The notes below the pieces were generated by a model. It worked only from the letters and a program-made list of their open reading frames with translations. It was not told the DNA's origin and did no database searches. A DNA stretch of 64,000 nucleotides from Pedobacter puniceum (lineage in GTDB: Bacteria; Bacteroidota; Bacteroidia; Sphingobacteriales; Sphingobacteriaceae): NCBI RefSeq assembly GCF_009674685.1, contig NZ_WKJI01000004.1, positions 156,427 through 220,426 of the forward strand, in the 5' to 3' direction. Both the position numbers and the translations under genes were made by a program. Below, piece after piece: positions 24,661 to 26,975 of this stretch (positions within the stretch are counted from its first letter, which is position 1; each line of letters starts with the position of its first letter).

Positions 24661-24691
24661 AAAAAAGCCCTCGCTATTTGCAAGGGCTTTT
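24661..24691 (-). terminator. terminator after small lipoprotein gene
   Basis: AAAAGCCCT and AGGGCTTTT form the stem, with a T-rich tail on the minus strand, 25 bases after the stop codon. Confidence 0.8.
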
Positions 24692-24715
24692 CTTAAAATC
24701 TTAAAAGATTTTTGC

Positions 24716-24907
24716 TTATTGAGCAGCAGCAGCAGTATCAACAGCAGCAGTATCAACAGCAGCAGTATCAACAGCAGCAGTATCAACAACTACAGAATCA
24801 GTAACAACTGAATCAGTTGCTTCTTCAGCTGGTTTGTTAGAGTTACAAGCAACTACTGATAAAGAGATAGCTAAAGCAAAAAATCCGAATTTTAATAAAT
24901 TTTTCAT
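24716..24907 (-). CDS. small repeat-bearing lipoprotein
   Basis: This 63-residue protein has a lipoprotein signal peptide (MKNLLKFGFFALAISLSVVAC). The lipobox SVVAC places the lipidated cysteine at position 21. The mature part is only ~42 residues and consists of Ser/Thr/Val/Asp/Ala-rich sequence with four VDTAA repeats ending in AAAAQ. Similar tiny Thr/Ala/Asp-rich lipoproteins are common in Bacteroidetes; function is unknown. The -7 box is at 24953-24960, giving a leader of about 40 bases, and a terminator follows, so it is a complete monocistronic gene. The repeat number could vary by slippage. Confidence 0.75.
   Translation of the reverse strand: MKNLLKFGFFALAISLSVVACNSNKPAEEATDSVVTDSVVVDTAAVDTAAVDTAAVDTAAAAQ
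24736..24795. repeat. 15-base tandem repeat inside the lipoprotein gene
   Basis: The unit TATCAACAGCAGCAG occurs three times exactly, with a fourth degenerate copy. In protein it encodes the VDTAA repeats. A 15-base unit keeps the frame when copy number changes. Confidence 0.9.
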
Positions 24908-24952
24908 GTTAATTTCTTTTTTTAATTTTTGATAATTTAATCGTTAATACTG

Positions 24953-24960
24953 CAAAGGTA
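24953..24960 (-). promoter_or_regulatory. -7 box of the small lipoprotein gene
   Basis: TACCTTTG on the minus strand, exact TAnnTTTG match, about 46 bases upstream of the ATG. No obvious -33 element. Confidence 0.55.
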
Positions 24961-25003
24961 AAAAGGTAACCCGATTTTTAAATATTTTTTTAATAAAAAA
25001 AGA

Positions 25004-25043
25004 AAAAACCTGCTAACTGCTAATAAATCAGGCTTTTTATTGC
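25004..25043 (-). terminator. orphan terminator-like hairpin
   Basis: AAAAACCTG and CAGGCTTTTT form a stem with one bulge around a 16-base loop. On the minus strand it is followed by a long T-rich tract. No gene on the minus strand ends just upstream of it. Confidence 0.4.
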
Positions 25044-25249
25044 GAAAATAATTTTTAAAAAAAAGTATTAAGTCTTTTGTTTTTGCAGATATTTAATATA
25101 AATGATGATAGAATCTTAGATTTTTAGATAGTTTATTAAAACTTATTACACTTTCAAAATTATAGTTGTGGTAGTTCTTTATATTTTAATTGGCTAAAAG
25201 TTTTTTTTTACCAACTTTGGGTTACAATTCCGTTTAAAGCGTATTAACA

Positions 25250-25828
25250 TTGAATAAAAAGATAAATCATTCGAAGCCAACAGATAGTGAAATTATTTTA
25301 GGTATTCTGAATAATTCATCTTCCATTTTAAAGCATTTGTATCTGGCTTATTTTCCCATGATACTACAACTTGTTATCAATAATAATGGTGATGAGGATG
25401 ATGCAAAAGATATTTACCAAGAAGCAATTATTGTATTGCATGGTAAAATAAAAAGTGGAGATTTTGAATTAAGTAGTAAACTAAAAACTTTTATATATTC
25501 TGTTTGCAGAAGATTATGGTTAAAGAAGTTAAGTCAGAAAAGTAGATTTAGCGGCGATATTAAAGATTATGAAGATTATATCCCTGTAGAACAGGAGATA
25601 GAACATCATCAAGAAAAAGATAAACAATTTACGATGATGCATTCCGCATTAAAAGATTTGGGAGAGCCGTGTAAAACTATTATTGAAGATTTTTATATAC
25701 ACAACCGTTCTATGCAAGAAATCTGCGAAAAATTTGGTTATACCAACGCAGATAATGCTAAAACGCAGAAGTATAAGTGTTTACAGCGATTGAAAAAAAT
25801 ATTTTTTAATCAAAAAATTGAAAAATGA
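25250..25828 (+). CDS. ECF-type RNA polymerase sigma factor
   Basis: The 192-residue protein has a sigma-70 region 2 at about 25-95 (LYLAYFPMILQLVINNNGDEDDAKDIYQEAIIVLHGKI, the DDAKDIYQEA core of region 2.2) and a region 4 helix-turn-helix at about 125-185 (LGEPCKTIIEDFYIHNRSMQEICEKFGYTNADNAKTQKYKCLQRLK). No earlier ATG is in frame and the next Met falls inside region 2, so the start is TTG at 25250. The stop overlaps the next start as ATGA, so sigma factor and downstream membrane protease are translationally coupled, the usual arrangement of a sigma factor and its anti-sigma factor. Confidence 0.88.
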   Translation: MNKKINHSKPTDSEIILGILNNSSSILKHLYLAYFPMILQLVINNNGDEDDAKDIYQEAIIVLHGKIKSGDFELSSKLKTFIYSVCRRLWLKKLSQKSRFSGDIKDYEDYIPVEQEIEHHQEKDKQFTMMHSALKDLGEPCKTIIEDFYIHNRSMQEICEKFGYTNADNAKTQKYKCLQRLKKIFFNQKIEK

Positions 25829-26922
25829 GTAGTGAGTTAGCATTGATTAAAAGAATTGAAGCATATCTCTATCAGGAAATGTCTGATGAAGAAATGATAC
25901 AATTTGAGCAAGAGAGAGCAGCAAACCCAGCTTTAGATAGTAAAGTTGTTGCCCACTTAGATTTCTTAAAATCATTAAAAAACTATGGTGAGGTTCAAGA
26001 TTTGAAATCATCAATGAAAAACTTCCATCAACAGTTAGATATAGTTGCTTTAAAAGAAGAATTACAAGAAAAGGAACCTGCCTTTGTGATATTCTTTAGA
26101 AAATATAAGAGAAATCTAGCAGTGGCTGCCTCTGTAGCTATTTTAGCTACTTTAATTACACTAATTTCTACAGGTCAATTTAGAAAGGCAAGCAACTCTT
26201 CTACTTACAATGCCTTGAAAAGAGATATGGAGTCTATCAAAAAGTCTCAAAATGCTCTGATAAGAAATATCAATTCTAAATCTCCTAACAAAGAAATAGC
26301 ACCCAGCCAGTTTGGTGGTACAGGTTTCGCACTATCATCAAATGGTTATTTGGTTACCAATTACCATGTTGTACAGGGGGCAGATTCTGTTTATATCCAA
26401 AATAATAAAGGCGAGTCTTTTAAGGTACAAACTATTTATATAGACCCTTCTTATGATATTGCAATTTTGCAAATTGTAGACCCTTTGTTTGAGTCATTAT
26501 CACCTTTGCCTTATACTTTTAAAAAGTCATCTTCAGATTTAGGTGAAGATGTTTATACTATTGGATATCCTAGAGATGAGGTAGTTTATGGAAAAGGTTA
26601 TTTAAGTGCGCAAACTGGTTTTGGTGGAGATTCTATTGCTTACCAAGTTTCTATACCAGTTAACCCTGGTAACTCTGGAGGCCCTTTAATGGATAATAGA
26701 GGAAACGTAATTGGTGTTATTAGTGGTAAACAAACTCAGGTTGATGGTGCTGCATTTGCCATAAAATCAGATTATTTGTTGAAAGCGATAGAAAATATAC
26801 CTCAGGATTCTTTGAAGAAAAAGCTTAAAATAAACTCTAAAAATAGCTTAGCATCATTTAACAGAACACAGCAAATTAAAAAGATGCAAGATTATATTTT
26901 TATGGTTAAGGTATATAATTAA
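25825..26922 (+). CDS. membrane-anchored HtrA-like serine protease fused to an anti-sigma-like N-terminus
   Basis: Three parts are seen in this 365-residue protein. Residues 1-96 are cytoplasmic and resemble the N-terminus of Bacteroidetes anti-sigma factors (EAYLYQEMSDEEMIQFEQ, then AANPALDSKV). Residues 97-116 form one membrane span. The rest is a periplasmic trypsin-like domain (~150-325) with the complete triad His181 in TNYHVV, Asp211 in SYDIAIL and Ser284 in NPGNSGGPL. There is no PDZ domain; the C-terminal ~40 residues are basic. The inferred role is a sensor that holds the ECF sigma factor and contains its own protease, where DegS and RseA are separate proteins in E. coli. The anti-sigma function is an inference; the protease assignment is firm. 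Confidence 0.82.
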   Translation: MSSELALIKRIEAYLYQEMSDEEMIQFEQERAANPALDSKVVAHLDFLKSLKNYGEVQDLKSSMKNFHQQLDIVALKEELQEKEPAFVIFFRKYKRNLAVAASVAILATLITLISTGQFRKASNSSTYNALKRDMESIKKSQNALIRNINSKSPNKEIAPSQFGGTGFALSSNGYLVTNYHVVQGADSVYIQNNKGESFKVQTIYIDPSYDIAILQIVDPLFESLSPLPYTFKKSSSDLGEDVYTIGYPRDEVVYGKGYLSAQTGFGGDSIAYQVSIPVNPGNSGGPLMDNRGNVIGVISGKQTQVDGAAFAIKSDYLLKAIENIPQDSLKKKLKINSKNSLASFNRTQQIKKMQDYIFMVKVYN

Positions 26923-26942
26923 GATTAACCTAATGATATATT

Positions 26943-26975
26943 AAAAAAGCTTCGATTTTTGTCGAAGCTTTTTTT
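26943..26975. terminator. bidirectional terminator, protease gene/nuoD
   Basis: AAAAAAGCTTCGA and TCGAAGCTTTTTT form a stem with a six-base loop between two converging genes. Confidence 0.9.

Follow-up and report, generated by a model that had tools for sequence, protein, structure and literature searches.

Two envelope stress pathways, RseA/DegS/RseP of the E. coli sigmaE response (PMC8103513) and MucA/AlgW of P. aeruginosa (AlgW: PMC8545111), are assembled from the same set of parts: an ECF sigma factor, a membrane-bound anti-sigma factor, a periplasmic HtrA-type serine protease and a homologue of RseP. The same parts can be recognized in the genome of Pedobacter puniceum, of which a two-gene operon is the subject of this analysis. 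In contrast to both pathways, however, the anti-sigma and HtrA components of this locus appear to reside in one chain, which lacks a PDZ sensor domain and carries a coiled-coil-like stem, and the associated promoter is present in only two exact copies.

Two further groups of proteins invite comparison. The Dma factor and similar anti-sigma factors of Bacteroides and Phocaeicola also display an unusual extracytoplasmic part and a pairing with a sigma factor (PMC13088901, PMC9308784); according to the available text of these reports, however, the Dma type reaches the outer membrane (PMC13088901), one Dma-like protein (presumably a member of that group) ends in a C-terminal beta-barrel (PMC9308784), and a protease part is described in neither. 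Within the compass of these sources, RseA/DegS and the Dma-type factors are the closest known systems. A different likeness is offered by HtrAw of Brevibacillus WF146, an HtrA protease that cuts away the membrane anchor at its own N-terminus, doing so between molecules when a protein substrate is present (PMC5359297); unlike the protein described here it possesses a PDZ domain, and the available part of that paper describes no anti-sigma role for it.

The restraint of ECF sigma factors in Bacteroidota is poorly known, and recognized class I anti-sigma domains were found beside only 6% of Bacteroidota ECF genes in one survey (PMC7406223, in its available portion). The locus presented here provides a conserved system in which a predicted anti-sigma domain that falls (in the P. 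puniceum protein) below standard cut-offs is accompanied by a candidate site-1 protease in the same chain; the question of self-cleavage can be put to a direct test, for which the locus offers a catalytic serine of known position, one target for a reporter and two sites of the promoter. The component parts are of known kinds, and what is new is the heptad-patterned stem and the bipartite promoter GGGTTAC-N15-GTATTAA. No description of an anti-sigma/HtrA fusion was found in the literature searched, a body of work outside of which lie the main ECF re-classification and the Dma1 studies.

The operon and a proposed mechanism

The window, a 64,000-nucleotide stretch of the P. puniceum genome, contains on its forward strand an ECF sigma factor gene (positions 25250-25828; 192 residues) that begins with the TTG codon at 25250; among 67 homologous sigma genes, for which the first start codon was chosen mechanically, 53 begin with GTG or TTG. 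Homology to the ECF family extends over both sigma2 and sigma4, with a score of 73.2 bits against TIGR02937 (residues 27-183; cut-off 42.9) and a match over the cut-off to Sigma70_r2 of Pfam. The second gene (25825-26922, forward strand) encodes a membrane protein of 365 residues that is predicted to combine an anti-sigma domain with an HtrA-like protease, and a hairpin scan placed a terminator-like hairpin 3' of the operon (26943-26974, forward strand). An earlier, sequence-only reading of this DNA had described an overlap of the two genes as ATGA, a single membrane span, an intact triad of His181, Asp211 and Ser284, and the absence of a PDZ domain. All of these hold: the overlap lies at 25825-25828, the most hydrophobic 19-mer covers residues 98-116, the three catalytic residues fall at those positions within a match to Pfam Trypsin_2 (residues 165-298; 89.9 bits), and no PDZ match was returned by Pfam or the curated libraries for a chain that ends at residue 365. 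The extent which that reading had assigned to the locus (25250-26922) takes in both ORFs, but leaves out a divergent lipoprotein gene and two promoter-like sites (24661-25247); the reading had overlooked that lipoprotein and the probable own promoter of the sigma factor, and had passed over the coiled-coil-like stem as well.

We propose that the locus encodes an RseA/DegS-like arrangement condensed into a single protein, operating as a self-cutting switch, and on balance we consider this probable. In the cytoplasm, the N-terminal helical domain would bind the ECF sigma factor and keep it away from RNA polymerase; the chain would continue through its one membrane span and the coiled-coil stem to a periplasmic HtrA-like protease, which probably forms a trimer. 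A presumed envelope signal would activate the protease, leading to a cut in the flexible linkers beside the stem, either within the same chain or in a neighboring chain of the trimer; the remaining stump would then become a substrate for RseP, the anti-sigma fragment would be destroyed in the cytoplasm, and the freed sigma factor would read GGGTTAC-N15-GTATTAA before its own operon and before one small lipoprotein gene. Computed support for this scheme is provided by the domain anatomy, the fixed pairing with the sigma factor, the predicted sigma/N-terminus unit, the motif and its two exact sites, the lipoprotein as a likely target, and an RseP homologue encoded in the genome (270 bits; cut-off 147.55); HtrAw supplies a precedent for an HtrA that cuts its own chain type. 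Counted against it are the missing PDZ domain, an N-terminus that scores under the curated cut-offs, and the weak Foldseek match of the fused-chain AlphaFold2 model.

Conservation, stem and protease domain

A family search, suggested in the sequence-only reading as a gauge of how far the fusion extends, indicated that it is widespread and old rather than peculiar to the window genome. Among 295 genomes of the class (P. puniceum included), a search with the fusion protein gave 43 matches at E <= 1.0e-50, 39 of which align from residue 18 or earlier, and the named carriers include Pedobacter, Pelobium and Chitinophaga. Removal of 7 duplicate proteins left a unique set of 68 with the long form; a protease paralogue (L002), a second encounter with the window locus (L068) and a gene split by a change of frame (L019) had been dropped before counting. 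Every one of the 67 unique homologues that could be tested is directly preceded by a sigma gene from the same family, in the same direction; the 68th (L087) lies at a contig edge that cuts off its upstream gene. The catalytic triad is invariant across the 66 rows of alignment A1, from which the near-copies L004 and L021 were omitted and in which the window represents L001. For one locus (L084) the chosen ORF starts 40 residues late, and it may correspond to a fusion without the first helix. In the split gene of Chitinophaga sedimenti (L019:3980-5079), the frame change falls between the N- and C-terminal parts of the protease gene and could be either a sequencing error or real.

In a tree of the protease domain, a branch with 100/100 support separates the 66 fused rows, drawn from several families, from all others, and on these grounds an explanation of the fusion as a local peculiarity or a mis-joined gene was rejected. 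A single joining event followed by vertical descent appears to fit best, with some rows on long branches. The 20 other relatives in the tree carry the protease inside other proteins, 18 of them with what we read as a signal-peptide-like start. At all 20 loci fetched for distant protease relatives, profile searches found neither an ECF gene nor the N-terminal domain, and a sigma linkage of those relatives was accordingly rejected.

Between the N-terminal domain and the protease lie the membrane span (residues 97-116; 26113-26172, forward strand), evident from hydrophobicity and from a model helix at residues 87-115, and a heptad-repeat stem (residues 128-149; 26206-26271, forward strand; model helix 127-150), which is predicted to form a coiled coil in which Gln142 makes up a conserved layer. 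The heptad is unbroken over the whole of residues 128-149. Bulky hydrophobic residues fill 96% of the d positions and 74% of the a positions, where Gln142 accounts for most of the deficit; at b, c, f and g their share is 2-7%, and at e it reaches 30%, mostly through Ile146. Such a pattern suggests a parallel coiled coil, plausibly a trimeric one because it is attached to an HtrA domain. In the AlphaFold2 model, pLDDT drops below 50 at residues 121-126 and 148-159, and the linkers around these stretches would be the likeliest sites of a cut.

The protease domain itself (residues 161-345; 26305-26859, forward strand) has the trypsin-like fold and His-Asp-Ser triad of the HtrA/Deg family without its C-terminal PDZ domain, and its best Foldseek matches are HhoA, DegS, HtrA1 and MucD. 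With DegS and other HtrA proteases the window protein shares an N-terminal anchor and a trypsin-like domain bearing the triad; it differs from them in the absent PDZ domain, in a score far below the cut-off of the DegS equivalog model (TIGR02038; 62.6 bits versus 422.95), and in an additional, conserved C-terminal helix and strand (residues 346-365; 26860-26919, forward strand) that are predicted to be part of the protease fold. The model assigns residues 347-357 to the helix and 358-364 to the strand, with pLDDT blocks of 96, 96 and 90 from residue 341 on. The terminal residues, YIFMVKVYN, had been considered as a free peptide ligand resembling the C-termini of outer membrane proteins, a possibility that was rejected because the model places them in the protease as a high-confidence strand. 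The region of this extra helix and strand has matches elsewhere among Bacteroidota S1 proteases (L152-L171), as part of different proteins that are mostly longer and begin with a signal-peptide-like sequence; some of them carry what we take to be MORN-like repeats. A further PDZ-less membrane serine protease resembling the window protein is found in the MarP family (M. tuberculosis Rv3671c), for which we know of no anti-sigma domain; the window protein is nevertheless far under the cut-off of that family (NF033740; 88.8 bits versus 250).

Judged from codon differences, the protease part is under strong constraint, since between the window and the corresponding locus of P. glucosidilyticus (L003) residues 161-345 differ at 19 codons, all of them silent, with 0 replacements. 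Residues 1-80 of the same pair show 13 replacement and 18 silent codon differences. The invariant triad and the lack of replacements in the protease fit a catalytic role but are silent on the substrate, and it is at this point that a rival explanation enters. We regard it as rather unlikely. It retains the anti-sigma domain and dispenses with self-cleavage: the protease would constitute the effector half of the system, engaged in envelope quality control, or else a binding sensor, and the sigma factor would be freed by a conformational change transmitted through the stem or after a first cut by another protease. Action on misfolded proteins is common among HtrA proteases, the stem could transmit movement, and the genome also encodes the longer paralogue L002, taken for DegP; moreover, the site-1 cleavage of the self-cutting switch is a step that we infer.

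The probable promoter motif and the divergent lipoprotein

For the self-cutting switch to operate as proposed, the freed sigma factor would read a bipartite motif, GGGTTAC-N15/16-GTATTAA, that is found just 5' of the sigma start in the upstream regions of these loci. Within -120 to +60 of that start, a loose form of the motif is present in 61 of the 67 loci and a strict form in 53; the loose form occurs in none of 43 other ECF loci. In the window, GGGTTAC-N15-GTATTAA is found directly 5' of the sigma start codon (25219-25247, forward strand) and again on the opposite strand (24944-24972, reverse strand), with 36 nt between it and the ATG of a small lipoprotein gene. When the exact motif was sought with spacers of 13-18 nt throughout the 3.9-Mb genome, these two copies were the only ones; a control in which the motif was read backwards gave 0 exact matches genome-wide, and shuffles of the window contained none. 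Across 60 genomes (P. puniceum included) there are 65 exact sites versus 7 control sites, and by our table count 55 of the 65 are at the sigma locus. The motif is the probable promoter of the sigma gene itself; the papers listed by a literature search on its letters were unrelated. In the window 2 nt separate the motif from the TTG start codon, and in 42 of 61 loci the distance to the start codon is 2-3 nt; the sigma mRNA may therefore be leaderless, the alternative being an unusual start of transcription. When up to 2 mismatches were allowed, the P. puniceum genome yielded 34 sites versus 42 in the control reading; no wider regulon of near-exact sites is therefore visible, and the possibility of one was rejected.

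The lipoprotein gene (24716-24907, reverse strand) encodes 63 residues comprising a signal peptide, a VVAC lipobox and a low-complexity tail of Val, Asp, Thr and Ala, and is followed by a terminator-like hairpin and T run (24661-24691, reverse strand) that was recognized by eye and is absent from the list produced by the hairpin scan. A filter based on length, start, lipobox and composition finds a similar small lipoprotein encoded divergently beside the sigma gene in 63 of the 67 loci (50 of these 63 with the loose motif within 130 nt), and finds none at 42 other ECF loci. Four loci have no adjoining lipoprotein; as had been predicted before the regions were read, all four genomes carry one elsewhere with the motif. 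In G020, G033 and G035 the exact motif occurs off the locus, upstream of a lipoprotein gene of this type, and in G289 the motif with one mismatch stands upstream of L234, a lipoprotein that a family search recovered. Because the target moves yet keeps its motif, this relocation offers good evidence, at the level of sequence, that the lipoprotein gene is regulated, and it is likely a target of the switch.

None of the other seven off-locus exact sites among the 60 genomes stands before a lipoprotein of this kind; three (L216, L218 and L220) are 25-42 nt before other genes, and four (L217, L219, L221 and L222) have no clear target. At L216 the site is 33 nt before the gene of a larger lipoprotein, presumably of the DUF4349 type; at L218 it is 42 nt before that of a secreted protein, which we take to be DUF4294; and at L220 it is 25 nt before the gene of a small protein. 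At four sigma loci (L041, L042, L074 and L079) two or three divergent lipoprotein genes stand in a row, each with its own copy of the motif at L074. The tail of the window lipoprotein is encoded in part by a perfect 15-nt tandem repeat (24727-24788; 4.1 copies) that specifies VDTAA repeats, the number of which may vary between strains.

The lipoprotein resembles the PG1828 family (NF050142; E 6.1e-12), at 46.1 bits against a cut-off of 50. PG1828 and PG1827 are, judging by their numbers, presumably neighboring genes. The PG1828 lipoprotein of P. gingivalis is described as a strong cell activator in the available text of PMC6706054. Among the 30 loci that gave the best NF050142 matches (L228-L257), an ECF gene is present within about 1.5 kb on either side in four (L237, L241, L245 and L251), and all four carry the fusion; the notion that lipoproteins of this type generally stand beside such a sigma gene was rejected on that basis. 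At E 0.001 the family model finds a match in 239 of 295 Bacteroidia genomes; because its cut-off is passed in only 10 and 3 of 14 control genomes give a match as well, much of this breadth may be low-complexity similarity.

The same observations bear on a second rival, doubtful in our estimation, in which the lipoprotein serves as an input and not solely as an output: its disordered, Val/Ala-rich tail would be bound or cut by the protease, so that the circuit would measure the supply or sorting of the lipoprotein, or shut itself off through it. That the second and last exact copy of the promoter in the genome precedes the lipoprotein gene, that the association is kept in different families and survives relocation, and that the tail consists of simple repeats all speak for such an arrangement; on the other hand, lipoproteins of this type also occur apart from any such sigma locus, and a plain structural or protective role would explain the co-regulation equally well. 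An input role is compatible with the self-cutting switch, and both can be true together. A combination of the two would be a closed circuit of three genes, in which the anti-sigma factor and site-1 protease are united in one PDZ-less, self-cutting trimer, the regulon consists of the switch and one lipoprotein, and the protease monitors the supply or sorting of the latter. We consider this combination a long shot; if true, Sphingobacteriaceae, Chitinophaga and related bacteria would possess a sentinel devoted to the lipoprotein.

The N-terminal domain and the sigma factor

In the self-cutting switch, the N-terminus would restrain the sigma factor. Residues 1-80 (25825-26064, forward strand) are predicted to form an anti-sigma domain with helices at residues 2-15, 21-33, 35-70 and 73-80, and residues 11-60 of the helical AlphaFold2 model have pLDDT values of 91-94. 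The domain is encoded directly behind an ECF gene, and its cytoplasmic location is deduced from the topology. The sequence-only reading had likened residues 1-96 to Bacteroidota anti-sigma factors and had placed this part and the HtrA-like protease in one chain; both proposals find computational support, although residues 1-96 of the window protein exceed no cut-off in Pfam or the curated libraries, the class I anti-sigma model zf-HC2 giving 12.2 bits versus the required 22.2.

Weaker matches were collected for the 46 proteins of alignment A3, a subset that we chose from the 68; for the 45 other than the window protein, these matches are known by E-value alone, the best being 1.8e-4. They include zf-HC2 in 18 of the 46 (best E 1.8e-4), NF010501 ('putative anti-sigmaE') in 7 (best E 0.0085) and NF052375 ('anti-sigma factor') in 6 (best E 3.5e-4). 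The matches common to most members are anti-sigma-related, and many scattered single matches occur besides. A profile of the N-terminal domain, searched against 41 genomes, also finds proteins that are not proteases. Of the 28 resulting loci that were read (L121-L148), two encode family proteases and 26 encode other proteins, and in 22 of these 26 an ECF gene lies directly upstream (26 of the 33 non-protease matches were read, and the 7 weaker ones stand outside this count). The broad ECF profile was drawn from 20 of the ECF loci of the P. puniceum genome, of which 21 were over the cut-off, the window's sigma factor included. Because of these positions behind ECF genes, and because the weak library matches are anti-sigma-related, the N-terminus looks like a Bacteroidota anti-sigma type that is combined with several extracytoplasmic parts.

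A structure prediction of the sigma factor together with the N-terminus, also put forward in the sequence-only reading, was obtained for a relative. In some relatives the sigma and protease genes are in the same frame, and the intervening stop codons were read as residues so that the two could be folded as one chain. For a Pelobium pair (L005), with an input of 14 other same-frame paired rows and 85 unpaired rows, AlphaFold2 gave a mean pLDDT of 89.7 and a pTM of 0.83, a model of this one pair judged by pLDDT, pTM and secondary structure, measures that do not display an interface such as the one between sigma2 and sigma4 at which class I anti-sigma domains bind. The result is a confident unit, and these values are what a defined complex of sigma factor and N-terminus would give. 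Foldseek matches to this model are weak (none at E <= 0.001, the best at 4.9e-3); among them, rmsd values are 12.5-13.6 Å for the sigma chains of AlgU/MucA and sigmaE/RseA and about 19-25 Å for ECF sigma factors bound to RNA polymerase, a comparison that leans toward the inhibited form of the sigma factor and settles nothing. A third rival holds that the N-terminus is no anti-sigma domain at all, with sigma factor and protease linked by co-transcription alone or with the protease as an activator of the sigma factor. It accords with the failure of residues 1-96 to pass any curated model, but is highly improbable in view of the 22 of 26 non-protease proteins whose domain is encoded directly behind an ECF gene and of the pTM of the fused model. 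In the P. puniceum genome itself, a gene behind another ECF gene (L058) matches the N-terminal profile with an E-value of 5e-4, as calculated for a small set.
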